Of a stretch of 41,276 nt of DNA, positions 1,554 to 36,828 are shown piece after piece (within the stretch, counting starts at the first letter, position 1; every line of letters starts with the position of its first letter). The DNA lies in NCBI GenBank assembly GCA_903913645.1, contig CAIWMA010000294.1, positions 1 through 41,276 of the forward strand. The letters run 5' to 3'. Source of the DNA: an uncultured Bacteroidales bacterium. Lineage in GTDB: Bacteria > Bacteroidota > Bacteroidia > Bacteroidales > UBA4417. The position numbers and the translations under genes were made by a program. The notes below the pieces were generated by a model. It made no database searches. It was given only the letters and a program-made list of their open reading frames with translations, and had not been told where the DNA came from.

Positions 1554-1609
1554 GAAGTAGGGAGTCGGAAGTCCGGAGTCGGAAGTCGGAAGCTGGGAAT
1601 TGGGAATTG
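1554..1609. repeat. Heptad tract 1 (words GGAGTCG / GAAGTCG / GGAATTG)
   Basis: Eight consecutive 7-base units fit the pattern G-R-A-R-K-Y-G and drift from GAAGTAG through GGAGTCG to GGAATTG. The period is exactly 7 with no indels. It lies between the divergent tnaA and esterase genes. Confidence 0.8.
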
Positions 1610-1727
1610 GAGATGAATGCGATGCGTGGTAGCAACTCATCTGATTTTGAACCATGTTATTGAAAGAAGCATAATACCAAATAACTGAAAAGAAAGCCTT
1701 AAAAGATCGCGCAAGCAATAGTCCGGG

Positions 1728-1755
1728 ATCTCCAGACCTCCGTCTCCCGTCTTCC
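1728..1755. repeat. Heptad tract 1b, pyrimidine-rich (GTCTCCC-like)
   Basis: Four 7-base units (ATCTCCA, GACCTCC, GTCTCCC, GTCTTCC) are rich in pyrimidines on the plus strand. They are roughly the opposite-strand counterpart of the purine-rich tract at 1554-1609 in the same gap. Confidence 0.6.
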
Positions 1756-1808
1756 AGCCATTTTTTACCCTTACTCTAATAAACATACTGAACCCAAAGA
1801 ACTGCATT

Positions 1809-3188
1809 ATGTTAAAACAATTCCTTTTCTCTGCATCATGTTTTTTGTTGATCATGACATCTGTTTCGTGTGTTTCGGGGCAACAACATAAATTTATGGA
1901 ATTCGAAAATTCAAAAGTTTATCCTTCTGTGGCCTGCACTGCGGATACGAATACAAGCTATGCCTTGTTCTTGCCGCCTCAATACGAAAAAAGCAAACCA
2001 TGCCCGATTCTTATTATTTTCGATCCTTCAGGCAGCGGGCTTCTGCCAGTGAACCTGTTTAATGCTGAAGCTGCAAAAAACGGATTTATCATTGCCGGCT
2101 CAAATAATTCAAGAAACGGGATGGCTTTTGAACAAACCAATGCAATTTACCACAAAATGCTTGCTGACATTACAGCAAGGTTCAATATTGAAAAGAAAGC
2201 TGTTTACCTCGCTGGATTTTCAGGTGGTTCGCGGGTTGCTGCTTCCATAGCCATAACCGAAGGTGGAATAGCCGGTATCATTGGCTGCAGCGCAGGTTTG
2301 CCGGATATAAAGCAGAATCCAGTCGGTCCATTCAGCTACCTGGCTGTCACGGGAACACAGGATTTTAATTATTACGAAATGCAGCAGCTTGACGAATCGC
2401 TCGAATCTGCTAAATATCAGCATCATTTGCTGGTATTCGACGGCAAACATCAATGGCCGCCAAAAGAGATGATTCCTGATATTTTCACATGGCTCCGGTT
2501 CGATGCCATGCGCCAGCAAGCCATTCCTACCGAAAGGGCAGAAATTAACCTCTTTATCGAAAAAAATGATAAAATCGCTGAATCACTCATTGGTAAAGGA
2601 CAACTTCGCGAGCGGCAGGCCATGTTTATCAAAATGTTGCATTACCTGCAGGGGCTTACTGATGTTGCTCCGCTACAGGCTGAAATCACAAAACTATCGG
2701 CTGAAAAAGAGATTATTGATTACAACAAACAGCAAAAAGAACTCTTTTACCTGGAACAGCAATTACAGCAGAAATATTTTCCTGAATTGCAGCTGAAAAA
2801 CGTTGAATGGTGGACTTCCGAAACCACACAACTCCAGGCGCTGACCAAAAACCCAAGGAAACCCGATTTAAACCATGTCTATCAAAGGCTGCTTGCATTT
2901 CTGAGTATGAATTGCTATATGTACTCAAACCATGCCTTTAAAGATGGGAACATGGAATTAGCTGCACGATTTATTGAAATTTATCGTCTAGTTGATCCAA
3001 CAAATGCGGAACATCGTTACATGGCAGCCAAAGTAGCTGCAATAAATCAAAATCCGGATGCTTGTTTTATTGCCCTGAATCAAGCCTTTGACCTGGGATT
3101 TAAGGATATTAACCGCCTGAAAAATGACGCAGATTTCAAGGCATACCGGGAGGATGAAAGATTTATAAGTCTTCTAAACAGGAAATAA
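1809..3188 (+). CDS. Secreted alpha/beta-hydrolase (esterase-like) with helical C-terminal region
   Basis: A 459-residue exported protein, probably a serine esterase or peptidase-like hydrolase; the substrate is unknown. A hydrophobic signal peptide covers residues 1-24. It could be cut after VSG or lipidated at Cys21 (SVSC, a poor lipobox). The alpha/beta-hydrolase core (about 45-230) has the nucleophile elbow GFSGG with Ser138. Asp185 (TGTQDFNY) and His214 (DGKHQW) follow in the right order for the triad. Residues 240-350 look helical. The last 80 residues resemble a TPR-like unit ending in the common pattern of an Asp-Phe/Arg-Phe pair before a short tail. It stands alone on the plus strand, and no good -7 box is visible upstream. 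The fold is well supported; the function is not. Confidence 0.72.
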   Translation: MLKQFLFSASCFLLIMTSVSCVSGQQHKFMEFENSKVYPSVACTADTNTSYALFLPPQYEKSKPCPILIIFDPSGSGLLPVNLFNAEAAKNGFIIAGSNNSRNGMAFEQTNAIYHKMLADITARFNIEKKAVYLAGFSGGSRVAASIAITEGGIAGIIGCSAGLPDIKQNPVGPFSYLAVTGTQDFNYYEMQQLDESLESAKYQHHLLVFDGKHQWPPKEMIPDIFTWLRFDAMRQQAIPTERAEINLFIEKNDKIAESLIGKGQLRERQAMFIKMLHYLQGLTDVAPLQAEITKLSAEKEIIDYNKQQKELFYLEQQLQQKYFPELQLKNVEWWTSETTQLQALTKNPRKPDLNHVYQRLLAFLSMNCYMYSNHAFKDGNMELAARFIEIYRLVDPTNAEHRYMAAKVAAINQNPDACFIALNQAFDLGFKDINRLKNDADFKAYREDERFISLLNRK

Positions 3189-3210
3189 TTATGCCTGCCA
3201 TTTCATAAAA

Positions 3211-3245
3211 GTTCCTAGTCCCAAATTCCAAGAACCAAATCCCAA
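3211..3245. repeat. Heptad tract 2 (ATTCCAA / ATCCCAA)
   Basis: Five 7-base units (GTTCCTA, GTCCCAA, ATTCCAA, GAACCAA, ATCCCAA) begin 22 bases after the esterase stop codon. The period is exact. Confidence 0.75.
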
Positions 3246-3290
3246 GGAGGAAGATAGAATTTTATTGTTAGTGTAATATCGATTTAAAGT

Positions 3291-3325
3291 TCTAGGAATT
3301 TGAAACTTGAGATTTGAAACTTAAA
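3291..3325. repeat. Heptad tract 2b (ATTTGAA / ACTTGAG)
   Basis: Five 7-base units include ATTTGAA twice, 14 bases apart, alternating with ACTTGAG and ACTTAAA. This is the second tract in the same gap and carries a different word from the first. Confidence 0.65.
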
Positions 3326-3363
3326 ACGCAACATTGATTAAATCCGGCAAAATATTTCATTCA

Positions 3364-3505: not shown

Positions 3506-3560
3506 ATGCCATAAATGAGATAAATATTAAGAGATTGCAATATATGATCTCTGTATTCTG

Positions 3561-6686: not shown

Positions 6687-6753
6687 ATTAAACCACTTCC
6701 AGTAAATTCCGTAAAAGCAGCTTTTTACAAGAAAGTTTATGCCTAACTCGCCA

Positions 6754-6788
6754 TACTCTATACTCTATACTCTATACTATATACTCTG
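6754..6788. repeat. Heptad tract 3 (TACTCTA)
   Basis: Five 7-base units: TACTCTA three times, TACTATA, TACTCTG. This is one of the purest tracts in the window and lies 67 bases after the rodA stop. Confidence 0.85.
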
Positions 6789-6909: not shown

Positions 6910-7011
6910 TGGTGTAACTCTGGAAAGTTGTTCAAAGAGCAACATAAAGCAGAAATAGTTCAGCAGAAATATCCGTATAAAAAAAACCGCCCCGTTTCCG
7001 GAGCGGTTTTT
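6910..7011 (+). ncRNA. Candidate small RNA element B, ending in an intrinsic terminator
   Basis: It shares TGGTGTAACT (6910-6919) and AAATATCCGT (6967-6976) with element A at 3364-3505, in the same order and before a terminator. A small hairpin with arms GTTG/CAAC lies between them. It could be the 3' part of the rodA transcript rather than a separate RNA. Confidence 0.28.
6979..7011. terminator. Bidirectional intrinsic terminator between rodA and ppiD
   Basis: Arms ACCGC/GCGGT are extended by CCG/CGG around a TTT loop. There are eight A residues on the left (6979-6986) and five T residues on the right (7007-7011). It works for the minus-strand ppiD transcript (T8) and plausibly for plus-strand transcripts arriving from rodA. 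Confidence 0.85.
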
Positions 7012-9342: not shown

Positions 9343-9377
9343 ATTGGGGATTGCAGATTGGGTAATTGAGATTGAAT
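9343..9377. repeat. Heptad tract 4 (ATTGGGG / ATTGCAG)
   Basis: Five 7-base units (ATTGGGG, ATTGCAG, ATTGGGT, AATTGAG, ATTGAAT). It is slightly more degenerate than its neighbours. Confidence 0.6.
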
Positions 9378-9470
9378 AAAGCAGGTCAGATTTAGGATGT
9401 ACTTTAAAATTCCAAAACGATTCAGAAACTATTTTATTTTATATCAATAAAAAGAAAAGATACCTCATAA

Positions 9471-9505
9471 ATCCGAAATCAGAAATCAGAAATCAGAAAT
9501 TCCTT
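9471..9505. repeat. Heptad tract 5 (ATCAGAA), touching the CNNM stop codon
   Basis: ATCCGAA is followed by ATCAGAA three times and one degenerate unit. It runs straight into the stop codon of the minus-strand CNNM gene (9505-9507). The word ATCCGAA recurs in the tract at 27463-27553. Confidence 0.85.
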
Positions 9506-10770
9506 TACCCTTCAATCTTCATCATCACTTTATCAATCCTGCTGCCTGTTGCTTCGAGGATGGTAAATGTAAACCTGTCAATCTGAATTTGTTCGCGGAT
9601 TTCGGGAATGCTTTGGTGGTGATTCAGAATAAGTCCGGCAAGGGTTTCATATTCATCCGACTGAGGCAGGATCAGTAAATACTCCTGGTTAAGGTAATCG
9701 ATTTCGAGACGACCTGCCAGTATGAATTCGGTTTCGCTGATTTTTTTTACCAGCAATTCTTCCACATCAAATTCATCTTCAATTTCTCCGAATATTTCTT
9801 CAATCAGATCCTCTACCGTAACCATTCCTGCGGTTCCGCCGAATTCGTCTACTACCACGGCAACGCTTTTGCGCTGGCTTATCATCATATCAAGCACTTT
9901 GCTTGCTGCAATAGTTTCGGGAACAATAATTACCGGTCGCACAACGGTACTGATATCTGCGGGCTTTCCGAAAAGGTCGTATAAATGAACGTATCCCGTG
10001 AGATTATCAATGCTTTGTTTGTATACCGGTATTTTCGAATGCTGCGTTTCTATAAACAGGGAATGCAACTCTTCAATTTTAATGCTGTCATCAACGGCTA
10101 TAATTTCGTTCCGTGGCACCATACATTCACGAACTTTGGTTGAATGAAAGTCGCGGACATTTTGTATCATTTGCATTTCAGTAGCTTCATCCACCTGTGC
10201 GGCGGCAGGATTATAAAAATCACGTATATACTCATCAAAATCAATAGCAGTAAACTGGTACCTGACGGCTCCTGTTTTCATCCCGAAAATATACCTGAGT
10301 ATCAATTCGGACAATCCCAGGAAAAAATACATAAACGGATAAAGTATCAGGTAAACCAGGTAAACAGGCATCGCAAACGTATTCAGTAAGCCGTTAGGGT
10401 TGAGCCTGAACAGTATTTTGGGCAAAAATTCGGCTGTGATCAGTATCAGCAGTGTTGAAAGTATGGTTTGGAAAACCAGGATAATACTATCGGAAGCCAG
10501 TGGCGTAGGAAGCGAAATTTGAAGAACAGGGCCAAGTATAGCAGCAGCGGCTATACCATAAATAACCAGCGAAATGTTGTTGCCGATAAGCATGGCACCA
10601 ATAAACCGTGAAGGATGATGAACAAAACCGGATACAAGCCTGGCCGATAATAATCCTTTACCTTTTTCGAGTTCAATGCGGAGCTTGTTGGAACTTACAA
10701 ATGCTATTTCCATCCCCGAGAAAAAGGCAGAAGATGCAAGCGTAATAGCTATAATCACATAATTGTTCAT
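9505..10770 (-). CDS. CNNM/CorC-family membrane protein with CBS pair (HlyC/CorC, GldE-like)
   Basis: A 421-residue inner-membrane protein of the DUF21/CNNM family, linked to Mg2+/Co2+ handling. The gliding protein GldE belongs to the same superfamily. Residues 1-180 form the CNNM domain with several membrane segments (FFSGMEIAFVSSNKLR near the start is characteristic). A pair of CBS domains follows (MVPR near 205, a second around 265-320 ending in DEFGGTAGMVTVEDLIEEIFGEI). A CorC_HlyC C-terminal domain spans about 345-420. It sits between lptC and ppiD. The name GldE is not applied because sequence alone does not separate it from generic CNNM proteins. Confidence 0.9.
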   Translation of the reverse strand: MNNYVIIAITLASSAFFSGMEIAFVSSNKLRIELEKGKGLLSARLVSGFVHHPSRFIGAMLIGNNISLVIYGIAAAAILGPVLQISLPTPLASDSIILVFQTILSTLLILITAEFLPKILFRLNPNGLLNTFAMPVYLVYLILYPFMYFFLGLSELILRYIFGMKTGAVRYQFTAIDFDEYIRDFYNPAAAQVDEATEMQMIQNVRDFHSTKVRECMVPRNEIIAVDDSIKIEELHSLFIETQHSKIPVYKQSIDNLTGYVHLYDLFGKPADISTVVRPVIIVPETIAASKVLDMMISQRKSVAVVVDEFGGTAGMVTVEDLIEEIFGEIEDEFDVEELLVKKISETEFILAGRLEIDYLNQEYLLILPQSDEYETLAGLILNHHQSIPEIREQIQIDRFTFTILEATGSRIDKVMMKIEG

Positions 10771-14225: not shown

Positions 14226-14234
14226 GGTTTTGAA

Positions 14235-14262
14235 ATGGCGGATGTTTAATGGCGGATGTTGG
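14235..14262. repeat. Heptad tract 6 (ATGGCGG / ATGTTTA)
   Basis: Four 7-base units with ATGGCGG twice, alternating with ATGTTTA and ATGTTGG, so a 14-base super-period is visible. It starts 10 bases after the thioredoxin-like gene. Confidence 0.75.
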
Positions 14263-14307
14263 TGTTAGAATTATACTGAACACTATCCTTCAACCCCCAA
14301 TCCCTTC

Positions 14308-14355
14308 GTCTCTCAGTCTCCCTGTCCCTCAGTCTCCCTGTCTCAAAGTCTCCAC
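14308..14355. repeat. Octad tract 7 (GTCTCCCT), the only 8-base-period tract
   Basis: Six units of 8 bases: GTCTCTCA, GTCTCCCT, GTCCCTCA, GTCTCCCT, GTCTCAAA, GTCTCCAC. The period is 8 throughout. It ends 12 bases before the -7 box of the S41 peptidase gene. Confidence 0.85.
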
Positions 14356-14367
14356 CCACTTTCATCA

Positions 14368-14375
14368 TACTTTTG
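14368..14375 (+). promoter_or_regulatory. -7 promoter element for the S41 peptidase gene
   Basis: TACTTTTG matches TAnnTTTG. Transcription would start near 14382, with a leader of about 48 bases. Confidence 0.5.
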
Positions 14376-14429
14376 CCGTTCATTTCTAAAAAATCAATTC
14401 TCTTTTAATTAAAATACCCAAAACACCAA

Positions 14430-16043
14430 ATGGAAAATAACCGCCGATCTTATATTTATTTGCCTATTGCTTTTGCGCTTGTACTTGTTGTCGGAATTCT
14501 GGCAGGGTTTTACATGATGCGAAGCTCATTTATCCAGAATCACCTGCTTTTAAATGGCATGAAGGGCCAAAATACACTCAGCGAACTTATCCGGTTTATC
14601 GACAATAATTATGTTGACAGCGTTGACACCAAGAAACTGAACGATGAAGCCATAACCGGGATGTTATTGAGCCTCGACCCGCATTCGGTATATATTCCTG
14701 CTTCCGATTTTGCCGAGGCAAATGATCCGCTTATGGGCAATTTCGAAGGAATAGGAATTCAATTCAAGATTGAGCGCGATACGGTGATGGTGATCAACAC
14801 AATTCCCGGCGGGCCATCAGAAAAAGTAGGTTTACTAGCCGGCGACCGGATTGTGAAAGTTGATGGTAAAAACATTGCTGGCATTAAACTGGAGAACGAT
14901 AAAGTCATGAAACTCCTTAAAGGTCCGAAAAACACGAAGGTTACGGTCAGTATTTTCAGAAGAGGTTTGAAAAAAATGAACGATTTTACTATTACCCGTG
15001 GCGTTATTCCAACCTGGAGCATCGATATTTCGTATGCTGTAAATGCTGAAGTCGGATATATAAAACTCAGCAAATTCAGTGCTACTACAGGCGACGAACT
15101 GCACGAAGCACTTACCGGGTTGAGAGCAAAAGGAATCCGCAAACTTATTCTCGACCTTCGGGGTAATTCCGGTGGTTATCTCCAGGAAGCTATCGCGGTA
15201 GCCGATGAGTTTTTACCTGATAATAAACTGATCGTATACACACAAGGACTGCACCGTCCGAAACAAATTGCCAAATCAACTGCCGACGGGCTCTGGGAAG
15301 ATTTACCTGTGACAGTACTTATTGATGAAGGATCCGCTTCGGCAAGCGAAATTGTAGCTGGAGCATTACAGGACAATGATCGTGGAACTATTATCGGAAG
15401 GCGCTCGTTCGGCAAAGGGCTTGTACAGGAACAAATCGGCCTCAGCGACGGATCGGCACTCCGGCTTACCGTGGCTCGGTATTACACTCCAACAGGCCGT
15501 AGCATTCAGAAACCTTATACCAAAGGAGCTGAAGAGTATTATATGGAATATTACCACCGCATGACCGATGGCGAACTTGACAATGCAGATAGCATCAAAC
15601 TGAATGATTCCCTGAAATTTAAAACCCCTGGAGGAAAAACAGTTTATGGCGGGGGCGGGATTATGCCCGATATTTTTGTTCCTGTAGAGCGGACTGCAGC
15701 ATTGAAATTTTATAACGAATCGGTAAATAAAGGAATTCTATACCAGTTTGCTTTTGATTATACGGATGGAAACCGATCAAAGTTCAGTTCCTACAAAGAT
15801 GCAACACAGTTCGACAAAACATTCAATATCAATAGTGGGATGTATAGCGAATACATTGCTTATGCAGAAAAGAACGGCATAAAATATTCACCAGCCGAAA
15901 CAGCTGCATCACAATTGAAAATAAATGAGCTGATGAAAAGTTATATTGCCAGGAATCTTTATGATGCTAAAGGATTCTACCCCATTTACCTGCGCACAGA
16001 TAAAACTTTCGTTAAAGCTATTGAGGAATTTGCAAAGAAATAA
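14430..16043 (+). CDS. Carboxyl-terminal processing peptidase (S41 family, PDZ domain)
   Basis: A 537-residue periplasmic serine protease anchored by one N-terminal membrane segment (about 10-31). The N-terminal tail-specific-protease helix region with SLDPHSVYI lies near 81-89. The PDZ domain is at about 105-185 (GIGIQF, PSEKVGLLAGDRIVKVDG). The catalytic domain follows, with LDLRGNSGGYL near 241-251. The catalytic dyad fits Ser304 (GSASASEI) and Lys329 (SFGKGLVQ), 25 residues apart as in other CTPs. The C-terminal 150 residues form an extra helical domain common in Bacteroidota homologues. A strong terminator follows. Confidence 0.94.
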   Translation: MENNRRSYIYLPIAFALVLVVGILAGFYMMRSSFIQNHLLLNGMKGQNTLSELIRFIDNNYVDSVDTKKLNDEAITGMLLSLDPHSVYIPASDFAEANDPLMGNFEGIGIQFKIERDTVMVINTIPGGPSEKVGLLAGDRIVKVDGKNIAGIKLENDKVMKLLKGPKNTKVTVSIFRRGLKKMNDFTITRGVIPTWSIDISYAVNAEVGYIKLSKFSATTGDELHEALTGLRAKGIRKLILDLRGNSGGYLQEAIAVADEFLPDNKLIVYTQGLHRPKQIAKSTADGLWEDLPVTVLIDEGSASASEIVAGALQDNDRGTIIGRRSFGKGLVQEQIGLSDGSALRLTVARYYTPTGRSIQKPYTKGAEEYYMEYYHRMTDGELDNADSIKLNDSLKFKTPGGKTVYGGGGIMPDIFVPVERTAALKFYNESVNKGILYQFAFDYTDGNRSKFSSYKDATQFDKTFNINSGMYSEYIAYAEKNGIKYSPAETAASQLKINELMKSYIARNLYDAKGFYPIYLRTDKTFVKAIEEFAKK

Positions 16044-16381
16044 ATGAAGCCTGGCCGACAAGCCTTTTACTTACTGAAAACTTTTTTATTTAACCCGGAA
16101 AACCTGCCTTACAGCGGGTTTTCTTTTTTATTACCGCTAGTTTTTTCAAAATTTATTGGCTGATTCCCTTTAGTTTTAATTAATCCTTATCCAGAAGAAT
16201 ACGGATCAGGAATGTAACCATCTGCCCGTTTATTAAAATCTGTTTTAATCCTAATAAACCAAATCAGGTCTGACTAAAAATAAATTCCTTACTTTAGCCC
16301 TTCAAATTTGGCTGATAATCCAATTTCGATAAATCCTGGCCTCAAATAATTTCCTTTGCCATCATCAGAACCATAAACATT
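16044..16381. other. Gap between S41 peptidase and MFS gene
   Basis: 338 bases holding the terminator at 16098-16129 and AT-rich sequence. A weak -7-like box TACTTTAG (16290-16297) lies about 85 bases before the MFS start. Nothing else is recognisable. Confidence 0.5.
16098..16129 (+). terminator. Intrinsic terminator after the S41 peptidase gene
   Basis: A 10-bp stem GAAAACCTGC/GCGGGTTTTC with one G-T pair and a 6-base loop is followed by six T residues (16124-16129). No heptad tract is present in this gap. Confidence 0.9.
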
Positions 16382-17623: not shown

Positions 17624-17672
17624 TTACACGCGAATGTTATTACCCATACCCACATTCACCTAAATTGAAATT

Positions 17673-18416: not shown

Positions 18417-18499
18417 AATCTGCCAAAAAACCATTGAATCGCCAAAACCATTTTTATTAAGGTTTGTTGTATGGTAATTAGAAATCAATAATTTACACC

Positions 18500-18907: not shown

Positions 18908-18918
18908 ATTGATTATTC

Positions 18919-19451: not shown

Positions 19452-19520
19452 GACAGGTTCTTCAATTCAAATAACTTTTCTTAGTTCGGAGGATTTAAAT
19501 CTCATGCATTTCTTTTTATG

Positions 19521-19528
19521 TACCTTCG
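19521..19528 (+). promoter_or_regulatory. Candidate -7 element for the methyltransferase gene
   Basis: TACCTTCG is the TAnnTTCG variant of the Bacteroidota -7 box, about 90 bases before the ATG at 19617. Confidence 0.35.
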
Positions 19529-19616
19529 CAAAAGAGTTAACAAAGCCGGCTATTGTTCTTTTTATTCAGGCCAATATTCTATTCAAATGGCTTAAAATCA
19601 GAAAACCTATTTTATC

Positions 19617-20804: not shown

Positions 20805-20843
20805 ACACTAACCTGATTTTTTACCTGTACATCCTGATTTGCG

Positions 20844-21698: not shown

Positions 21699-21704
21699 TC
21701 TGAA

Positions 21705-22157
21705 TTGAATACAACAGAATTCAGTTTTTCCCACATTATGGTCACAAGCATATTTACAAACAAAGCTGAAATTCCGAATGACTTTGTGCTTAGTGAAGCA
21801 TTAGGCGAATTATTAGGAGCATGGATGAACTTACGGGAATATGTTTTCGAGAATTACCCAAAAGCAACACAAGAATGGAATCTCCCTGGACAAAAGTATA
21901 GCTGGAGTTTCAGAATAAAGGATAAAAAACGGGCAATCATCTATTTACTTCCCAGAGATAAATTCTTCCTGGTCGCTTTTGTTTTTGGTGAAAAAGCTTC
22001 AAAAGAGGCGCTGGATAGCTCTATTGCTCCCGAAATTAAAACCATTATTGAATCGGCCAGGGTATATGCCGAAGGTCGGGGATTCAGAATTGAGGTGAGA
22101 ACCGAATCCATAGTTGAAGATATTAAATCACTGATTGACATTAAGTTGAAATATTAA
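21705..22157 (+). CDS. DUF3788-like protein
   Basis: A 150-residue soluble protein if it starts at TTG 21705; an ATG at 21738 would give 139 residues and suits the family better. The central part, LGAWMNLREYVFENYPKA, followed by EWNLPGQKYSWSFRIKDKKRAIIYLLP and then FFLVAFVFGEKASKEAL, matches the layout of DUF3788 proteins. Their role is unknown. It lies 6 bases after the UbiA-like gene and 6 bases before the next, in a tight operon. Confidence 0.75.
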   Translation: MNTTEFSFSHIMVTSIFTNKAEIPNDFVLSEALGELLGAWMNLREYVFENYPKATQEWNLPGQKYSWSFRIKDKKRAIIYLLPRDKFFLVAFVFGEKASKEALDSSIAPEIKTIIESARVYAEGRGFRIEVRTESIVEDIKSLIDIKLKY

Positions 22158-22163
22158 ATTGCC

Positions 22164-22946
22164 ATGAAACTACTACCGCGCAATTATAAAAGCGTTTTCA
22201 AAACAGAGGTCGCAAAAGCGCTTCAACTTCAGACAAGTCCCGGTATTGTCACCGAACAGGATATTAAACATCTGCCTGAACCGGTTCAGAAATACCTGAG
22301 ATATGTTGGTGCCATCGGGAAAGAAAAAATCCATTCGGTTAAGCTCGAATTTACCGGTGGCTTTAAGACTAATCCAAATAACAAATATGAGAAATTCATA
22401 TCCATACAATATAATTTCTTTGGAAGCCCAAAGCGGTTCTTTTACATGAAAATGCCGATGATGGGCATTCCCTGCTATGGATTACATGTTTATAAAGAAG
22501 GGACTGCATCGATGAAAATTAATTTATCCTCATTGATTGAAGTAGTTGATGCCATAGGAGAAATAATGAACCAGGGTGAAACCGTTACAGTATTTAACGA
22601 TCTATGCCTTATGGCTCCAGCTGCTTTGATTGATGCAGATATAAAGTGGCAAACAATCGACAAACTCATCGTAAAAGCGAATTATAAGAATGGCAAAAGC
22701 ACAATCTCTGCCACATTATATTTCAATGAAGCCGGGGAACTTATAAATTTCATTTCCACTGACAGGTTTCTGTCATCTGATGGTAAAACATATTTAAACT
22801 ACCCGTGGTCAACTCCGGCAATGAATTATAAAGATTTTAATGGACGAAAAGTACCTGCTTATGGCGAAACCATCTGGCAAATGCCAGAAGGTGATTTTGT
22901 TTACGGGAAATTCAACCTGAAAAGTATAGAGTATAATTGCAAATAA
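22164..22946 (+). CDS. DUF6544-like hypothetical protein
   Basis: A 260-residue protein with no clear signal peptide. It has LPEPVQKYLRYVGAIG near 36-51, a beta-rich middle with a Met-rich patch (FYMKMPMMGIPCYGLHVY), and NDLCLMAPAALIDADIKWQTID near 145-166. The end contains VPAYGETIWQMPEGDFVYGKFNLKSIEYN. The order of these blocks fits the uncharacterised DUF6544 family, recalled from memory rather than searched. It is the last gene of the methyltransferase-UbiA-DUF3788 run. Confidence 0.65.
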   Translation: MKLLPRNYKSVFKTEVAKALQLQTSPGIVTEQDIKHLPEPVQKYLRYVGAIGKEKIHSVKLEFTGGFKTNPNNKYEKFISIQYNFFGSPKRFFYMKMPMMGIPCYGLHVYKEGTASMKINLSSLIEVVDAIGEIMNQGETVTVFNDLCLMAPAALIDADIKWQTIDKLIVKANYKNGKSTISATLYFNEAGELINFISTDRFLSSDGKTYLNYPWSTPAMNYKDFNGRKVPAYGETIWQMPEGDFVYGKFNLKSIEYNCK

Positions 22947-27456: not shown

Positions 27457-27462
27457 CTATTG

Positions 27463-27553
27463 TAGATTTCGGATTGTAGATTTCGGATTGCAAAATGAAG
27501 ATCTGAAATAGGGGATTTAATCCGAAATCTGAAATCAAAAATCCGAAATCAAT
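27463..27553. repeat. Heptad tract 8, self-complementary, between convergent genes
   Basis: Thirteen 7-base units without indels. The left side has TAGATTT CGGATTG twice and the right side has AATCCGA-type units. AGATTTCGGATT (27464-27475 and 27478-27489) is the exact reverse complement of AATCCGAAATCT (27519-27530), and 11 of its 12 bases are matched again at 27540-27550. The tract fills the whole gap between ispB and the ABC-F gene and can fold into a long hairpin for either strand, without a T-run. Confidence 0.9.
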
Positions 27554-29503
27554 TTATTCCATCCCTTCTTTCTGCATTGCTTCTAATTCCTCATGAGCCT
27601 GTTCCCAAGCTTCCATTTTAAGTTCCAGTTCCTTTTTCAGTCCTTGATACTCCTGGAATAAGCGGGTGCTTTTTACTGTGTCCTTATGCGTATCAGGATC
27701 GGCCAGCAATATATCGTATCGGGCAATTTCAGTTTCTATGGCTTCTATATCCTGTTCGGCCTTTTCAACTTTCGAAGCCTGCTTACGGATTTCACGATCC
27801 AGCTGCTTGCGCTTAGCGTAGTTGAGTTTTTTGTCCGAAAGGTTTTCTCCTGCTTTTTGCTGTTCAGTCCGCTTTGCTTCCAGTTGAGCAAGATTGGCTA
27901 ATTTGCGTGATTTTATAAATTCATTGATATCGCACATCCAGGTTTTGATGGTCCGGTTGCGGAATTCGAAAATTTTATCAGTCAATCCCTGCAAGAAATC
28001 GCGGTCGTGCGAAACAATGATAAGTGTTCCATCATATCGAAGCAAAGCATTTTTCAAAATATCCTTGCTAACCATATCAAGGTGGTTAGTCGGTTCATCG
28101 AGAACCAGCAAGTTAACGGGAACAAGCAGTAATTTCGCTAGGGCCAGCCTTGCTTTTTCACCACCCGAAAGCACTTTTACTTTTTTATCAATGGCATCGG
28201 CACCAAACAGGAAACTTCCCAGGATATTCCTGATTTTAGTCCGGATTTCGCCGGTTGCGACATCATCAATAGTTTCGAAAACAGTTTTTTCAGGATTAAG
28301 CAGCTCAGCCTGGTTTTGGGCATAGTACCCTATTTTCACATTATGACCCAGTTTACACAGACCTTCATGATCCAGTCCTCCGACAATAATTTTAGCAAGT
28401 GTAGTTTTCCCTTCTCCATTCCTACCGACAAAGGAAACAAAATCGCCTTTTTCAATCGCCAGGTCCAGTTTGTCCAGAACCAGTTTTTCGCCATATCGCT
28501 TGGTAAGATCCTTGCATTCAACTACTACCCTTCCGGATGAAGGAGCCGGTGGAAATAAAAAATGAATAGCTGACGAATTTGGGTCATCTACTTCTACACG
28601 CTCCATTTTATCAAGCAATTTTATGCGCGACTGAACCTGCCTTGCTTTGGAGGCTTTATACCTGAACCGCTCCACAAAACTCTCGATTTGTGCTATCTCC
28701 GACTGCTGGTTATCGAAAGCCGCTTTTTGCAGTTCCATCTGCTCCTCACGAAGCTCAACGTACCTGGAGTACCCGGCTTTGTAATCGTAAATGCGGGCAT
28801 TCATTATTTCGATGGTTCGGTTGGTGACATTATCGAGGAAAGCCCTGTCGTGTGAAACCAATACTACTGAACCACTGTATGTGATCAGAAAATCTTCGAG
28901 CCATTGGATGGATTCAATATCCAGGTGATTGGTTGGCTCATCGAGAAGAATAACGTCAGGTTTTTTTAATAGGATTTTTGCCAGTTCCACCCGCATTTGC
29001 CAGCCACCGCTGAATGTACTGAGTGGCCTTTCGAATTCTATCGGCTCAAAACCCAGTCCTTTAAGCACTTTTTCGGCATCTTCCTGCATATTCTGTCCGC
29101 CAAGCAAATGGAAGCGGTCTGTGACTTCGTTCAGACGCTGGATAAGCTTCGAATAGGATTCACTTTCATAATCCGTTCGTTCCGCAAGTTCGGCAGAAAA
29201 TTTATCCATCAGGTGATGCTGATGCCGGGCTTCTTCAAAGGCAGTCATAGCTTCCTGAAGTACATTCAGTTTACTGCCGGTTGCCATTTCCTGCGGCAAA
29301 TAACCTACAGAACTTCCCGACGGACTTGCAACAACTCCGCCTTCGGGTTCCTGCATTCCGGCAATAATGCGCATCAGCGTAGTTTTGCCTGCACCGTTGC
29401 GCCCAACCAAGCCAATACGGTCACGGTCGCCAATCAGGAAACTCACGTTGCTGAACAGGTAATCGCCGGTAAAATGTACTGAAAGGTTGCTTACAGAAAT
29501 CAT
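27554..29503 (-). CDS. ABC-F family ATPase
   Basis: A 649-residue soluble protein with two ABC domains and no membrane part. Such proteins act on ribosomes in translation or resistance. Domain 1 has Walker A GRNGAGKTT (34-42), the signature FSGGWQMR and Walker B ILLDEPTNHLD. Domain 2 has GRNGEGKTT, LSGGEKARLALAKLL and LVLDEPTNHLD. A linker of about 80 residues and a C-terminal coiled coil (about 545-649, Lys/Glu/Gln-rich) resemble the Uup/YbiT-like groups. The ATG at 29503 is preferred over a TTG three codons upstream. Confidence 0.92.
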   Translation of the reverse strand: MISVSNLSVHFTGDYLFSNVSFLIGDRDRIGLVGRNGAGKTTLMRIIAGMQEPEGGVVASPSGSSVGYLPQEMATGSKLNVLQEAMTAFEEARHQHHLMDKFSAELAERTDYESESYSKLIQRLNEVTDRFHLLGGQNMQEDAEKVLKGLGFEPIEFERPLSTFSGGWQMRVELAKILLKKPDVILLDEPTNHLDIESIQWLEDFLITYSGSVVLVSHDRAFLDNVTNRTIEIMNARIYDYKAGYSRYVELREEQMELQKAAFDNQQSEIAQIESFVERFRYKASKARQVQSRIKLLDKMERVEVDDPNSSAIHFLFPPAPSSGRVVVECKDLTKRYGEKLVLDKLDLAIEKGDFVSFVGRNGEGKTTLAKIIVGGLDHEGLCKLGHNVKIGYYAQNQAELLNPEKTVFETIDDVATGEIRTKIRNILGSFLFGADAIDKKVKVLSGGEKARLALAKLLLVPVNLLVLDEPTNHLDMVSKDILKNALLRYDGTLIIVSHDRDFLQGLTDKIFEFRNRTIKTWMCDINEFIKSRKLANLAQLEAKRTEQQKAGENLSDKKLNYAKRKQLDREIRKQASKVEKAEQDIEAIETEIARYDILLADPDTHKDTVKSTRLFQEYQGLKKELELKMEAWEQAHEELEAMQKEGME

Positions 29504-29579
29504 AAGCGGCAAAGGTACTGCTTTTGGAGAAAAGAAAAAGGAGGCTATGTCGAGATTCCAACCTTCAGCACTTTTTCAT

Positions 29580-29621
29580 TTAGTCTTAAGTGTTATTTGT
29601 TTAGTGTCAAATGTTTTTCAT
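29580..29621. repeat. Heptad tract 9 (TTAGTGT / TAAGTGT)
   Basis: Six degenerate 7-base units (for example TTAGTCT, TAAGTGT, TTAGTGT) upstream of the ABC-F gene. TTAAGTGTT (29586-29594) is the reverse complement of AACACTTAA (29682-29690) in the next tract. Confidence 0.6.
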
Positions 29622-29666
29622 TCCTTCATTTACATTATGGCCAATGAACAAAGGCACCATATAAAA

Positions 29667-29701
29667 AAATGAAAAACACTCAACACTTAATAAAAAATGA
29701 T
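29667..29701. repeat. Heptad tract 9b (AAACACT / CAACACT)
   Basis: Five 7-base units (AAATGAA, AAACACT, CAACACT, TAATAAA, AAATGAT). The words are complementary to those of tract 9, as if the pair were an inverted copy. Confidence 0.6.
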
Positions 29702-31144: not shown

Positions 31145-31222
31145 GGCTTAAGATTTTATCGGATAAAATTACGATTGAAAATGAAACGACTGGATAGAAA
31201 CAAAAAATATCAATGAATTGAG

Positions 31223-31257
31223 GTACGATTTACGTGGTAAGATTTACGATTTTAAAC
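31223..31257. repeat. Heptad tract 10 (TTACGAT / GTACGAT)
   Basis: Five 7-base units (GTACGAT, TTACGTG, GTAAGAT, TTACGAT, TTTAAAC), giving a 14-base near-repeat. Confidence 0.65.
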
Positions 31258-31282: not shown

Positions 31283-31324
31283 TTAACGATTAACCAATCA
31301 CGATTTACAACTAACGTCTTAAAA
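31283..31324. repeat. Heptad tract 10b (TTAACGA / TTAACCA)
   Basis: Six 7-base units related to tract 10 through the shared ACGA core (TTAACGA, ATCACGA). It ends 30 bases before the -7 box of the YtxH gene. Confidence 0.6.
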
Positions 31325-31353
31325 CCAAATTAATAAACTACCACTTTTAGTGT

Positions 31354-31383: not shown

Positions 31384-31623
31384 ATGAGCAAAAACAATAA
31401 CAGCAAACTACTTATGGCTTTCCTGGCCGGCGCGGCAGTAGGCGCTGCCGTAGGGTATTTCCTGAATTCCGATAAAAAAGATGAATTGGTTGAAGATATG
31501 AAAGAAGGCGCTGCCAGTCTGAAGCAAACAATTGAAGACGGTCTTGGAAAAGTGAAAGAATTTGTGGATGCTTTCACTGACAGTGATTTCGAAACCGATA
31601 CTGATGTCCCAGCCAAATCCTGA
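31384..31623 (+). CDS. YtxH-like small membrane protein
   Basis: A 79-residue protein. One Gly/Ala-rich membrane segment (LLMAFLAGAAVGAAVGYFL at 9-27) is followed by the usual acidic/basic amphipathic helix (SDKKDELVEDMKEGAASL), the standard YtxH/gas-vesicle-type plan. Its role is unknown; homologues are often stress-induced. The stop codon lies 4 bases before the next gene, so these are cotranscribed. Confidence 0.85.
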   Translation: MSKNNNSKLLMAFLAGAAVGAAVGYFLNSDKKDELVEDMKEGAASLKQTIEDGLGKVKEFVDAFTDSDFETDTDVPAKS

Positions 31624-31627
31624 AGCT

Positions 31628-31996
31628 ATGAAAGAAAAATCTCCTGTTATCAGTGAGCTCAGGCAACTTATCACTGAATATTTTGATGCCAGGCTCAAGC
31701 TTTTAAAGCTTGAAACTTTTGAGAAAATCGCAAAAGTAACTGCTGTACTATTCTCCTCATTAGTTATGGCGTTGCTGGCCTTTTTTCTCTTGTTTTTCCT
31801 GAGCATGAGTGCCGGATTTTACCTTGGTAAAATTTTCGACAGTATGGCGCTTGGATTCCTTGCTGTGACTGGATTATATCTTATCCTGTTTGTATTAGTG
31901 ATGCTAATGAAAAAGGATCTGCTGGAAGAATTTCTTATCGAACGAATTATCGGTGAACTAACCAAAGAGGAGGGCGACGATGAACAAGCCGGTTAA
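31628..31996 (+). CDS. Holin-superfamily-like (DUF1469/Phage_holin_3_6) membrane protein
   Basis: A 122-residue protein. A charged N-terminal helix (ELRQLITEYFDARLKLLKLETFEKIAK, about 9-35) precedes two membrane segments (about 36-60 and 72-93), and an acidic tail follows. This is the Phage_holin_3_6 (DUF1469) layout. Despite the name, these are cellular proteins and no phage genes are nearby. The start MKEKSP is chosen because it follows the YtxH stop by 4 bases; the frame is open further upstream over ytxH. It overlaps the next gene by 17 bases. Confidence 0.82.
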   Translation: MKEKSPVISELRQLITEYFDARLKLLKLETFEKIAKVTAVLFSSLVMALLAFFLLFFLSMSAGFYLGKIFDSMALGFLAVTGLYLILFVLVMLMKKDLLEEFLIERIIGELTKEEGDDEQAG

Positions 31997-32303
31997 TAAA
32001 ATCAGCAACCTGGACAAACTGATCCGGGAAAAACATGAGTTGCAAACCTTTTGCACTTCGCAGGAAAAACTGATAGGTCTTAAATTCGATGAGTTAAGAA
32101 AGAACTTCCCTGAAATAATCACGAACGAAATCCTTCCTTATTCCCAGGAAAAGAATAACAAAATCCTTTCTATACTCGATATAGCCAACGAAATTATCTT
32201 CCGGTTTCTGCCTCCGCGCTTCAGGAACAGCATGTTTACCCGGATTGCATTAAAAGTGATACAGGTATTCGTTATCAGGGGATTCAGGAAAAAGAGTGAA
32301 TAA
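31980..32303 (+). CDS. Hypothetical protein closing the YtxH/holin-like operon
   Basis: A 107-residue, basic protein that overlaps the holin-like gene by 17 bases. The N-terminal half is a charged helix (KISNLDKLIREKHELQTF). The C-terminal half is mildly hydrophobic and Arg/Phe-rich (FLPPRFRNSMFTRIALKVIQVFVIRGFRKKSE), suggesting association with the membrane. No family is recognised; position in this trio is its best clue. Its final codons belong to the first unit of a heptad tract, so the end may have been reshaped by the repeat. Confidence 0.65.
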   Translation: MNKPVNKISNLDKLIREKHELQTFCTSQEKLIGLKFDELRKNFPEIITNEILPYSQEKNNKILSILDIANEIIFRFLPPRFRNSMFTRIALKVIQVFVIRGFRKKSE

Positions 32304-32352
32304 TGAACAGTGAATAGTGAACAGTGAATAGTGAACAGTGAATAGTGAATAA
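32297..32352. repeat. Heptad tract 11 (TGAACAG / TGAATAG alternating)
   Basis: Eight 7-base units. TGAACAG and TGAATAG alternate three times and are flanked on both sides by TGAATAA, a 14-base super-repeat with no other changes. The first unit contains the stop codon of the upstream gene (32301-32303). This is the cleanest tract in the window. Confidence 0.95.
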
Positions 32353-32369
32353 TAAAAGATTGAACAGTT

Positions 32370-32565: not shown

Positions 32566-32877
32566 ATGATCGCGATAGTAGATATAGCCGGGCAACAGTT
32601 TAAAGTTGCAAAAGATCAGAAGTTTTATGTGAACCGCCTCAAAGGAGAAGCAGGTTCGATAGTTGAATTCAATGAAGTACTTCTTTTAGATAACGAAGGC
32701 ACTGTAACCATTGGCACACCGCTTGTTGAAGGCGCAAAAGTATCGGCAACCATACTGGCTCACCTGCGTGGCGACAAAGTAAAAATCTTCAAGAAAAAAC
32801 GTCGTAAAGGATACCAGAAGGAAAGTGGTCACCGCCAGAATCTGACCCAGGTAAAAATCGAAGCGATAAACGCATAA
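32566..32877 (+). CDS. rplU: 50S ribosomal protein L21
   Basis: A 103-residue large-subunit protein that binds 23S rRNA. It starts MIAIVDIAGQQFKV and contains KVKIFKKKRRKGYQKESGHRQNLTQVKI near 73-100, the L21 signature. Length is normal. It is followed after 31 bases by rpmA, the universal partner gene. Confidence 0.98.
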   Translation: MIAIVDIAGQQFKVAKDQKFYVNRLKGEAGSIVEFNEVLLLDNEGTVTIGTPLVEGAKVSATILAHLRGDKVKIFKKKRRKGYQKESGHRQNLTQVKIEAINA

Positions 32878-33265: not shown

Positions 33266-33300
33266 GTGCCGGGTGCCAGGTGCGGGGTGCCAACAGTCCG
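33266..33300. repeat. Heptad tract 12 (GTGCCGG)
   Basis: GTGCCGG, GTGCCAG, GTGCGGG, GTGCCAA, then a degenerate unit. It is GC-rich compared with the surrounding DNA. Confidence 0.85.
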
Positions 33301-33321
33301 GCACTTCGACTCCACTCAGTT

Positions 33322-33403: not shown

Positions 33404-33431
33404 ACCGGAACCCGGAACTCCGGCACCTGGA
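33404..33431. repeat. Heptad tract 12c (ACCGGAA / CCCGGAA)
   Basis: Four units; the first two, ACCGGAA and CCCGGAA, are clear, and the next two are degenerate. It is 65 bases upstream of the serS start. Confidence 0.6.
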
Positions 33432-33496
33432 ACCAAATCATAATGAATAAATATAATTAGAACATACAATACCCTGAACCATAAAATATTAAACAA

Positions 33497-34768: not shown

Positions 34769-34795
34769 TTGCGGATTGTGGATGTAAAAATTTAA
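34768..34795. repeat. Heptad tract 13 (ATTGCGG / ATTGTGG), starting in the serS stop codon
   Basis: Four 7-base units. The first A of the first unit is the last base of the serS TAA. Confidence 0.6.
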
Positions 34796-34857
34796 AATTC
34801 ACTTTTTCTCCCAGTGTTCTTCGCCTTGTCTCCCCTCATTCTTACACCTAATGAACT

Positions 34858-36690
34858 ATGAAGCCTAAATTTCTTCTTCTGTTGATGCTAACAGGCTTAC
34901 TGATGACAGTTTGTCCGGGGAAAGTAATGGCTCAACAGACCGAGGAACAACTTGGTGTTCAATACTATAATAACAAAGAACTGGATAAAGCACTGGCGAC
35001 TTTCGAATCGTTATTCAACCGCAATCCTAGTCAGTTCAATTACCTTTATTATATCAATACTCTTTTTGAACTTAAAGATTTTGATAAAGCAGAAAAGGTA
35101 ATTAAAAAGCAATTGAAAGCCAACCCTGAAGATCCTCGTTTCCAGGTGGACCAGGGATACCTTAATATCATGCAGGGCGATATAACCAAAGGCCGTAAGA
35201 TATATGAAAACTGCCTGAAAGATCTTCATGCGGATAAGATGCAGATTTACAACCTCACTTACGCCTTCAGTAACCGGCGCGAAACAGATTATGTTATCCG
35301 GACCTACCTTCGCGGGCGTGCTTTGCTTAACGATCCGGCTGCATTTGCCTTTGAGCTGGCATATACTTATGAGGCATTGGGAAGTACGGAACAGATGATT
35401 GACGAATACCTGAATCTCCTGATCTCAAATCCTCAGCAAATGACAATGGTTCAAAACCGTCTGCAGGCATGGCTAAGTGATGATGTGGATAATACCAAAA
35501 ATGATACGTACCGTAAAGTTCTTCTGAAAAAATCGCAGCAAAATCCGGATGAAATACTGTACAACGAATTATTGCTCTGGCATTCCATCCAACAGAAAGA
35601 TTTTCCGTTTGCAATCCTGCAGGCTAAGGCACTCGATCGCAGGTATAGTGAGAACGGTCAACGGATTTTTGACCTGGCAGCTCTATGTGTGAGTAACGAA
35701 AACTATGATGCCGCTATTGATGGATACAACTATATTATTAAGAAAAAAGTAAACAGCGACCTTGCTTTGAGGAGCCGGATCGAGTTGATAAACACACAAT
35801 TCGTTCAATACAAAAAAACGTTTTCTCAGGACCAAAGCAGCCTGCTTTTAATGAAGCAGGAATATATCCAATTGCTTGATGAACTTGGGAAAATTCCTTT
35901 TACAATTCCGCTGATCCTTAACCTGGCTCATTTGCAGGCATTTTACTCTGGTGAAACTGATGCTGCAATTGCTCTGCTTTTACAAGCAATCAATATCCCA
36001 AACGTACCTCTGGCTAACCAGGCCGAATGCAAACTTGAACTGGCTGATATTTACCTGTTTTCGGATGAGCAATGGGAAGCCACTTTGCTGTATTCGCAGG
36101 TTGAAAAAACGTTTAAAAATGAACCGCTTGGCCATGAAGCTAAGTTCCGCAATGCGAAATTATCGTTTTATATTGGTGAATTTGGCTGGGCACTGGCTCA
36201 ACTTGATGTGCTTAAAGCTGCTACTTCCAAACTGATTGCCAATGATGCGCTCGAGCTTTCACTCTTAATAAGTGATAATATTGAAGAAGACAGCGTAACT
36301 ATACCATTGAGTATGTATGCAAAAGCGGATTTACTTGAATTCCGTAACCGTGATTCAGATGCTTTGGCAGTTCTTGATTCGATTAGCATACTTTATCCAA
36401 TGCATGCAATTGCTGATAACGTGCTGTTCAAGAAAGCGCAGATCTTTTCAAAAAACGGGAAATTTGACCTGGCAGCAGCCAACTATTCCCTGATCATTGA
36501 GAAATATCCTTACGACCTGCTTGCCGATGACTCCATGTATAACCTCGCTCTTTTATACGAAACTCAGCTGAACAATAAAGCCAAGGCCATGGAACTCTTC
36601 GAAAAAATCCTGACACAATATCCCGGAAGCCTTTATGTAGTTGATGCCCGCAAGCATTTCAGGGCACTGAGGAATGACCAGGTAAATTAG
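34858..36690 (+). CDS. Exported TPR-repeat protein
   Basis: A 610-residue protein with a signal peptide (about 1-25, ending VMAQQ). TPR units follow, with clear ones at 35-130 (YYNNKELDKALATFESLFNRNPSQ and KDFDKAEKVIKKQLKANPEDP). A less regular helical middle comes next, and two good C-terminal repeats lie at about 525-600 (NGKFDLAAANYSLIIEKYPYDLLADDSMYNLALLYE). The C-terminal pair resembles CpoB/BamD-type repeats, suggesting an envelope scaffold. It lies 90 bases after serS. Similar large TPR proteins next to serS occur in Bacteroidota, as far as I recall. Function is not established. Confidence 0.82.
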   Translation: MKPKFLLLLMLTGLLMTVCPGKVMAQQTEEQLGVQYYNNKELDKALATFESLFNRNPSQFNYLYYINTLFELKDFDKAEKVIKKQLKANPEDPRFQVDQGYLNIMQGDITKGRKIYENCLKDLHADKMQIYNLTYAFSNRRETDYVIRTYLRGRALLNDPAAFAFELAYTYEALGSTEQMIDEYLNLLISNPQQMTMVQNRLQAWLSDDVDNTKNDTYRKVLLKKSQQNPDEILYNELLLWHSIQQKDFPFAILQAKALDRRYSENGQRIFDLAALCVSNENYDAAIDGYNYIIKKKVNSDLALRSRIELINTQFVQYKKTFSQDQSSLLLMKQEYIQLLDELGKIPFTIPLILNLAHLQAFYSGETDAAIALLLQAINIPNVPLANQAECKLELADIYLFSDEQWEATLLYSQVEKTFKNEPLGHEAKFRNAKLSFYIGEFGWALAQLDVLKAATSKLIANDALELSLLISDNIEEDSVTIPLSMYAKADLLEFRNRDSDALAVLDSISILYPMHAIADNVLFKKAQIFSKNGKFDLAAANYSLIIEKYPYDLLADDSMYNLALLYETQLNNKAKAMELFEKILTQYPGSLYVVDARKHFRALRNDQVN

Positions 36691-36700
36691 TCGTGTGAAT

Positions 36701-36828
36701 AAGTTCTAAATTCAAAGTCTCAAAATCCAAATTCCAAGCTTTAAACTCCAAAAACATATCTCCATCTCTCCGTCTCCCATTCTCCCATTCTCACCAAACT
36801 CCAACCCCTAATCCCCAAACCCTCCACC
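36701..36828. repeat. Heptad tract 14, 128 bases, abutting the rsmA start codon
   Basis: About eighteen units of 7 bases, with one pair of 8-base units (CATTCTCC, CATTCTCA) in the middle. The word changes gradually from AAATTCC-like to CGTCTCC-like to CCAAACC. There is not one clear G-run, so the strand is strongly A/C/T. The last unit ends at 36828, directly before the TTG start of rsmA, leaving no room for a separate ribosome binding site. Confidence 0.85.

Follow-up and report, generated by a model that had tools for sequence, protein, structure and literature searches.

The 41,276-nucleotide window analysed here is contig CAIWMA010000294.1 (C294) of the 5.7-Mb, 593-contig draft genome of an uncultured Bacteroidales bacterium (assembly GCA_903913645.1; hereafter G000), and it carries a dispersed family of tandem tracts, mostly of seven-base period, whose repeated word differs between sites. 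The core anatomy of these tracts is a stop codon followed within about 13 nt by a heptad run that is G-rich on the sense strand, and sometimes then by a spacer and an inverted, C-rich run. We observed an intergenic excess of the period, anchoring at gene 3′ ends, a sense-strand G bias, replacement of the word at ancestral stop codons, and partial inverted pairing; the anchoring, the G bias and the pairing had been missed by the original prediction, which was made from the letters of the window. The explanation we favour, with somewhat less than even confidence, is that the tracts are tandem heptads of the same general kind as the intergenic heptamers of Xanthomonas and of cyanobacteria (the latter go by the name STRR), in a Bacteroidota form with many words per genome and an origin in transcription-linked slippage.

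The seven-base period belongs to intergenic DNA

We compared match frequencies in the intergenic DNA of the window with those in 60 first-order Markov shuffles, and found an excess at lags 7, 14 and 21 (z = 7.0, 10.2 and 5.8), with a weaker one at lags 8, 9 and 15 (z = 2.5, 2.8 and 4.5); the coding DNA of the window had no lag-7 excess (0.252, in keeping with 0.249–0.252 at nearby lags not divisible by 3). The predicted family of dispersed tracts with varying words (some of 14- or 8-base period), nearly missing from coding DNA, was therefore confirmed by this autocorrelation check. The gene list for the check was made by hand; family searches later placed genes at 31562–31996 (+) and 32566–32877 (+, rplU) in stretches that had partly been scored as intergenic, and the open reading frame (ORF) at 31408–31806 (minus), scored as coding, had no family match, so that the test was if anything diluted.

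Single-position tests covered the 20 predicted positions together with 14308 and 27519 (300 shuffles and three lags each, uncorrected). Fifteen of the 22 gave p ≤ 0.003 at lag 7, 14 or 8, six were weak (1728, 29667, 32370, 33404, 34768 and 36701; best p 0.007 to 0.033), and 33322 showed no period-7 signal. The strict seven-base period needs correcting for several tracts: those at 14235, 27463 and 31223 are really two words alternating at 14 bases, and by themselves give scarcely any signal at lag 7 or none. That no tract lies inside a gene body was correct in general, except that the tract at 32292–32356 overlaps the last codons of ORF 31980–32303 and provides its stop codon (32301–32303). The statement that tracts fill the intergenic spaces was too strong: many gaps of the window are tract-free.

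In sampled contigs (lag-7 score of at least 10), tract density per 10 kb of intergenic DNA was 4.7 in G000 (25 tracts), and 8.3 (34) and 4.7 (22) in the same-genus genomes G003 and G013, compared with 0.6, 0.0 and 0.0 in one shuffle and 0.36, 0.28 and 0.37 in coding DNA, respectively. Other Bacteroidales had 2.9 per 10 kb (28 tracts), against 0.9 after shuffling and 0.11 in coding DNA. Sorted by gene orientation, tracts occurred in 6 of 81 divergent, 70 of 400 tandem and 18 of 82 convergent gaps; the window's gap 1339–1808 is divergent, yet bears tracts.

Tracts are anchored at stop codons

Gene ends were taken from an ORF caller (at least 100 amino acids). Across the genus, a tract lay within 10 nt of, or overlapped, 52 of the 122 tract-facing gene 3′ ends, where uniform placement predicts 19.9; gene 5′ ends (11 of 104) matched expectation (12.0). 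The same was seen in G000 alone (3′ ends, 13 of 28 against 4.8 expected; 5′ ends, 1 of 26 against 2.7), and at the 3′ ends of G351 (37 of 60, 26.7 expected), a distant Bacteroidota genome, 99% complete, that was reached through one word and is the most extreme for tracts. Past the stop codons of genes of at least 100 amino acids, tract-start density per nt was 2.79 at offsets 0–13, 0.43 at 14–27 and 0.61 at 28–60.

Because the gene ends came from the caller, ten window genes were checked in relatives. The C-terminal residue was shared in 50 of 57 orthologue comparisons, and the seven that differed comprised one of GldE, two of the ABC-F protein and all four of the small ORF 31980–32303, which ends inside its tract. 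By these comparisons, the stop codons preceding tracts are mostly ancestral.

Elsewhere, the gap after a polyprenyl synthase gene (L203, genome G009) has G-rich repeats of about 10 bases immediately past the stop, and the gap after a thioredoxin-like gene (L205, G011) has G-rich repeats of 8–9 bases in the same place; the gene-end habit thus extends beyond period 7.

Stop-proximal tracts are G-rich on the sense strand

We scored strand composition in stop-proximal tracts, defined as those starting at −25 to +13 relative to the stop. On the sense strand, 47 of the 54 genus tracts were G-rich and 6 C-rich (p = 5.8e-9 if independent, an assumption qualified by the orthologues partly common to sister genomes). 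The ratio was 13:1 among the 14 such tracts of G000 (p = 0.0018) and 31:4 among the 37 of G351. Tracts farther from the stop had G-rich to C-rich ratios of 19:36 (genus) and 12:6 (G351), and sequence past tract-free stops was balanced (G 0.176, C 0.173). The bias was kept for genes of at least 200 amino acids (34:4), for tracts starting 3–13 nt past the stop (21:6), and for near-stop tracts of 8-base (4:0) and 16-base (7:0) period. A G3 quadruplex motif, sought on the sense strand only, was found in 0 of 54 genus stop-proximal tracts and 1 of 37 in G351.

Words are replaced at the same stop codons

Exactly doubled words fell into 18 classes among 38 tracts in G000, 19 among 39 in G003 and 20 among 31 in G013. 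The prediction that each tract has its own word therefore captured the diversity of classes, but some words recur at other same-genus sites: those at about 3205–3249, 9469, 14298–14352 and 32288–32368 have matches elsewhere in same-genus genomes, with alignments roughly limited to the tract, and matches of the 32292 tract in relatives end at the tract edges. When tracts were masked in the 29 tract-bearing gaps of G000, no pair had any other sequence in common, which, with the tract-edge limits, bears out the view that simple spread of one element does not account for the family in this genome.

Comparing tract position and word between species showed the orthologous gaps listed (up to seven same-genus species, with gaps at about 14226–22946 covered in only part of them) to hold tracts with differing words or to be tract-free. 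After serS, four of six relatives have a full tract beginning 0–4 nt past the stop, in four different word series; G003 and G013 are tract-free there, and the window keeps a short remnant. At the orthologous gldE-like stop, G003 and G013 have GGATGTY words, and G001, G005, G006, G007, G009 and G011 have no tract.

A vocabulary common to the phylum was also considered and set aside. GGATGTN tracts occurred in 16 of 296 genomes and the reversed pattern in 3; GATTNACG tracts (20 of 296) were not clearly separated from their reversed pattern (13), and the control for AGTGAAN (34 of 296) is void, as one and the same tract can match both the word and its reverse. Recurrence in the genus of 14 of 47 word classes from four outside sets, against 1 mirrored, is a biased count, since two of the sets were fetched by a GGATGT match.

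Inverted partners and the question of 3′-end structure

The clearest inverted pair of the window, 27459–27490 with 27519–27550, lies between convergent genes. In a test against 12 other tract neighbourhoods, the nearby reverse-complement match beat all the others for 24 of 110 tracts (8.5 expected); on direct matches, which were mostly split arrays, 20 of 110 did so. Strong inverted partners accompanied 35 of 135 genus tracts (9 mirror, 9 complement, 32 direct), 39 of 68 in G351 (2 mirror, 3 complement, 7 direct) and 1 of 14 in genome G178. Hairpins with tract arms occurred in 29 of 53 tract gaps of G351 (mirror 2), where the 5′ arm was the G-rich one in 28:1, and in 20 of 119 genus gaps (mirror 12 of 119), at 15:4 (p = 0.019; at a lower threshold 18:9, p = 0.12). 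Hairpins of tract-free gaps were unpolarised (28:33 genus, 10:7 G351, 36:26 others). The arms of G351 agree in unit order (0.90 in register against 0.81 for the best shift, in 17 of 18).

These observations bear on the main rival to slippage, which we regard as possible though unlikely taken by itself, and nearly as good an explanation: that selection keeps the tracts as mRNA 3′-end structures of G arm, loop and C arm, serving as terminator, exonuclease block or insulator, with any pairing word sufficing. It would account for stop anchoring, for inverted pairs in excess of mirror controls, and for the arm polarity seen in G351 but not in tract-free gaps. T-run terminators also followed fewer genes with stop-proximal tracts (7 of 70) than without (90 of 428; p = 0.034; genus alone, 4 of 44 against 76 of 359, p = 0.07), and the segment 27457–27553 folds as RNA with z = −3.6 on the plus strand. 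Set against this, just 2 of 12 window tract segments reached z ≤ −3 on a strand, as did 1 of 9 controls; the genus hairpins with tract arms are not far above their mirror count; most genus stop-proximal tracts are partnerless; and the rodA gap has a tract plus a separate terminator-like hairpin (6980–7010), the latter kept in relatives. As intrinsic terminators (GC-rich hairpin and T run) the tracts were rejected, the T-run type being present in just those 4 of 44 tract gaps, below the tract-free level.

Several larger arrangements were seen alongside. Two loci of G351 (L258:8523–8851 and L260:7351–7619) are very long palindromes of GTGAGAC/GTGAATA words with nearly identical loops, as if a hairpin had been copied. 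Genome G209 has two copies (L244:7788–8153 and L247:8910–9183) of an element composed of (AGTGAAG)n, a two-hairpin core of about 100 bp and (CACTCTT)n, their non-tract parts 88% alike over 98 bp. L138:15–158 and L167:8–190 repeat at a higher order, with units of about 56 and 52 bp, heptad blocks taking turns with other sequence.

Genes and tracts of the window

Family searches identified mrdA (3535), rodA (5427), a GldE-like gene (9505, minus), a C-terminal processing peptidase (14430), a polyprenyl synthase (26485), an ABC-F protein (27554, minus), an aldehyde dehydrogenase (29717, minus), rplU (32566), serS (33497), a tetratricopeptide repeat (TPR) protein (34858) and an rRNA adenine dimethylase (36829). 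The nearest named records to rodA are metagenome-assembled genomes of lake and other environmental Bacteroidales. An Rfam search of the window returned no match to a structured RNA at the gathering score. The tracts are as follows (p from 300 shuffles).

1554–1611, plus: G-rich heptads, GGAAGTC drifting to GGAATTG, in the divergent gap; lag-7 score 23.8, p 0/300; reverse-complement partner score 15, against ≤12 in 12 other tract neighbourhoods
1728–1757, minus: weak C-rich tract, inverted partner of 1554–1611; lag 7 p 0.013 only
3209–3246, minus: C-rich, mainly 14-base, beginning 20 nt past the stop at 3188; lag 14 p 0/300
3298–3322, plus: heptads ATTTGAA/ACTTGAG, partner of 3209–3246; lag-7 score 10.8, p 0/300; inverted score 11–13
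6753–6787, unstranded: heptads ATACTCT, 66 nt past the rodA stop, partnerless; inverted score 7
9343–9374, plus: irregular GATTGNN, mainly 14-base; lag 14 p 0/300, lag 7 p 0.04
9469–9500, minus: heptads, sense word TTTCTGA, 4 nt past the gldE-like stop (gene 9505–10770, minus); lag-7 score 22.8
14234–14260, plus: 14-base tract AATGGCGGATGTTT, 8 nt past the thioredoxin-like stop at 14225; lag 14 p 0/300, lag 7 p 0.68
14308–14353, minus: 8/16-base tract GTCTCTCAGTCTCCCT, its word at many G003 sites; lag 8 p 0/300
27459–27490, plus: tract GATTTCGGATTGTA, 2 nt past the polyprenyl-synthase stop at 27456; lag 14 p 0/300
27519–27550, minus: heptads, sense word GATTTCG, 3 nt (lag 7) past the ABC-F stop (gene 27554–29512, minus); partner of 27459–27490
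29580–29615, plus: irregular TTAGTGT; lag 14 p 0.003
29667–29700, minus: weak; AAGTGTT is the sense word of the minus-strand aldehyde dehydrogenase gene; lag 7 p 0.033
31222–31248, plus: 14-base tract GGTAAGATTTACGT; lag 14 p 0/300
31283–31337, minus: irregular AACGATT, partner of 31222–31248; lag 14 p 0/300; inverted score 14 against ≤13
32292–32356, plus: longest tract, AGTGAATAGTGAAC; lag-7 score 33.8, lag-14 score 40.0
33266–33292, plus: GTGCCGG; lag 7 p 0/300
33404–33434, minus: weak CCGGAAC, inverted partner of 33266–33292; lag 7 p 0.007
34769–34783, plus: short remnant TTGCGGATTGTGG, immediately 3′ of the serS stop at 34768; lag 7 p 0.007
36705–36752, minus: C-rich CAAATTC/CAAAATC, 14 nt past the TPR-gene stop; lag 14 p 0.007

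The stretch 29570–29700 also folds as RNA on the minus strand (z = −3.6). The tract-free gap 40328–40478 shows strong folding on either strand (z = −3.6 and −3.0) and has a terminator-like hairpin followed by TTTTA.

Proposed origin of the tracts

Under the slippage explanation, a tract would arise at the place where nascent RNA first emerges from ribosome cover, and would lengthen there seven bases at a time through slippage or local duplication. Past the last codon the G-rich coding strand could be left single, as in an R-loop, and added units would harm no codon or promoter; both would favour growth at that place. Inverted C-rich arms may arise by fold-back of the displaced G-rich strand, which would then be copied. 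The word would be a by-product with free turnover, and the step size of seven is taken as given. In favour of this explanation count the placement at 3′ but not 5′ ends, the sense-strand G bias, the ancestral stops, the scarcity of tracts in divergent gaps, the lack of common flanks among the masked G000 gaps, the missing G3 motifs in the genus and the like behaviour of 8-base tracts.

Several observations weigh against this explanation. Anchoring was absent from the other Bacteroidales sampled outside the genus (5 of 26 3′ ends, 4.8 expected) and from G178 (1 of 14, 0.8 expected). Near tracts devoid of sense stop triplets, 12 in all, did not show the G bias (7:5), although C-rich words seldom contain stop triplets. 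None of 13 indels between aligned tracts of G003 and G013 was of 7 bases, so that stepwise slippage was not observed; and within-tract variation showed no preference for particular columns (119 seen against 120.5 expected). In the genus, aligning the arms in register gives no better match than shifting them by a unit (0.82 against 0.81, 5 of 10), and copying of arm from arm is therefore seen only in G351. The scarcity of T-run terminators after stop-proximal tracts could also mean function. On balance we favour slippage, with selection for 3′-end structure as the main rival.

It is improbable, in our judgement, that the tracts serve as landing arrays for a protein with a 7-base reading step on RNA or single-stranded DNA. 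The strict pitch with variable words and the sense orientation would suit such a reader, and one cold-shock protein per heptamer is discussed in the text of PMC4679880. Variation is nevertheless spread across columns, and a word with a conserved core and free positions was rejected (z = −0.3 genus, −2.0 G351); 8-base tracts occupy the same place; and RNA recognition motif (RRM) proteins, one class of candidate reader, had no match in the six same-genus genomes searched.

More doubtful still is the idea that each tract marks an end of some small mobile element, like a miniature inverted-repeat transposable element (MITE) or a repetitive extragenic palindrome (REP). Internal sequence is shared by 9 matching pairs among 53 gaps in G351 and by both gaps examined in G209 (2/2), and G013 has a near-empty site for gap 1339–1808. 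Against this, the masked G000 gaps had no common non-tract sequence, and G003 and G013 yielded 4 pairs among 34 gaps and 2 among 28. A MITE or other dispersed element was accordingly rejected for G000, which lacks common internal or flanking sequence of the kind found in some G351 and G209 copies. Y1 transposase genes are present in 20 of 24 genomes (15 matches in G003, 16 in G013), but the flanks of 5 loci hold other palindromes or none, with no heptad tract within 420 nt; REP-associated tyrosine transposase (RAYT)/REP systems were rejected on these separate palindromes. At L286 and L287 (G003, G009), Y1 transposase genes are flanked by several GCCCTACGGGC palindromes.

We consider it very improbable that chance or ORF calling produced the anchoring, with ORFs simply ending in tracts that hold stops in all frames. 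ORF 31980–32303 and its G003 orthologue do end inside a tract, and G351 tracts are rich in sense stop triplets (0.110 per nt, 0.057 shuffled); yet C-terminal residues are kept with or without a tract in the orthologue comparisons, near-tract triplets in the genus number 0.091 per nt against 0.082 shuffled and 0.132 mirrored, and the lag-7 excess speaks against chance. All three frames are stopped within 36 nt after 20 of 54 tract genes and 56 of 463 others in the genus (22 of 37 and 8 of 113 in G351); backup stop codons were rejected as the driver of the period in the genus on the same triplet frequencies.

Least probable of all is a telomerase-like reverse transcriptase, such as DRT10 (PMC12632851), writing repeats into breaks: the order of G first and C second is that expected from two G-extended ends joined head to head, but RVT_1 has no match in G351 or G013 and 10 of 24 genomes lack one, DRT10 products are described in that text as 9-nt and non-chromosomal, and the G351 arms, matching in unit order, are copies and not separate additions. 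A resident RVT_1 enzyme as general writer is refuted by G351, unless the family lies outside RVT_1; the suggested mechanism that copies in 7-base steps, read as a repeat-writing enzyme, is not required, because G351 and G013 do without such a match.

What is constant among the tracts is position, strand and pitch, not sequence, and the cause is therefore to be sought in what DNA or RNA meets just past the last codon, for example the first ribosome-free nascent RNA. We tentatively propose, with less confidence than for the slippage explanation, that a G-rich-sense 7-base run right past stop codons is a word-independent gene-end feature of bacteria, alike in Bacteroidota and, from its published placement, in Xanthomonas. 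A long-puzzling class of bacterial repeats thereby gains a testable position and direction. With a fixed stop anchor, a fixed strand and a free word, sequence-specific readers and G-quadruplexes become unlikely as a general cause; transcription-linked growth or a 3′-end role becomes directly testable; and word turnover at ancestral stops, as after serS, offers natural replicates.

Comparison with known heptamer repeats

Heptamer tracts as such are already known; new here are the stop-codon anchoring, the sense-strand G bias and the interchangeable words. Intergenic heptamer tracts of unexplained role are in print, in the texts consulted, for Xanthomonas, cyanobacteria, Beggiatoaceae, Geobacter and a few Bacteroidetes (PMC4692102, PMC4679880, PMC2700814), and a search of the open-access literature turned up no account of tracts anchored at stop codons with many interchangeable words, either in Bacteroidota or in other groups. 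The claim that changing words have no described counterpart in Bacteroidota is weakened by the other heptamers that stand beside TAACTGA in some Bacteroidetes (PMC4679880) and by the variable Xanthomonas tracts (PMC4692102).

Tandem heptamers are, in the SPADE survey, the most abundant intergenic repeats in many prokaryotes, with no clue to function (PMC6344855); the position, strand and word turnover given here are not in the survey text consulted. REP/RAYT palindromes resemble our tracts in being intergenic, palindromic and present in the same genomes, but are fixed palindromes that lie beside a Y1 transposase and have no 7-base period. The tandem octa- and heptanucleotide "global regulator binding sites" of Geobacter metallireducens, mostly opposite-strand pairs, differ, as that text presents them, in having a fixed consensus per class and in being read as protein-binding sites (PMC2700814).

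TAACTGA direct repeats of Beggiatoaceae, cyanobacteria and five Bacteroidetes are intergenic heptamers like ours, described as lying for the most part just before start codons; in Gramella, Aequorivita-type strains and Elizabethkingia, other heptamers stand beside TAACTGA, and relatives have shorter repeat-free gaps (MacGregor 2015, PMC4679880). As reported there they use one word near starts, whereas the tracts here use other words and are anchored at stops, with 5′ ends at expectation. The dispersed tandem GGGGAYT heptamers of Nostoc are 68% intergenic (PMC4692102); cyanobacterial repeats as portrayed in that text differ from ours in having few pairs, more intragenic copies and few fixed G-rich words.

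A close likeness is to the GGGAATC heptamers of Xanthomonas campestris and X. axonopodis, 89–93% intergenic and of unknown function (Rehm et al. 2015, PMC4692102). By that account they lie on average 28 nt from the 5′ neighbouring ORF and 160 nt from the downstream ORF, are rare between divergent ORFs, form 70–75 convergent inverted pairs, often keep the same gene neighbours in two species with highly variable length and sequence, and, as stated in its discussion, prefer the coding strand downstream of ORFs. Our tracts share the tandem 7-base unit, the intergenic setting, the nearness to the upstream gene's end, the rarity in divergent gaps and the convergent inverted pairs (modest in the genus, strong in G351), and the architecture is accordingly not new in kind, Xanthomonas already showing upstream-gene placement, divergent rarity, convergent pairs and variation between species. 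They depart from the published Xanthomonas description, with its one G-triplet word per genome and its quadruplex interpretation, in having 18 word classes in 38 G000 tracts, in the absence of the G3 motif from the sense strand of genus stop-proximal tracts, and in the change of word from species to species after one and the same stop codon.

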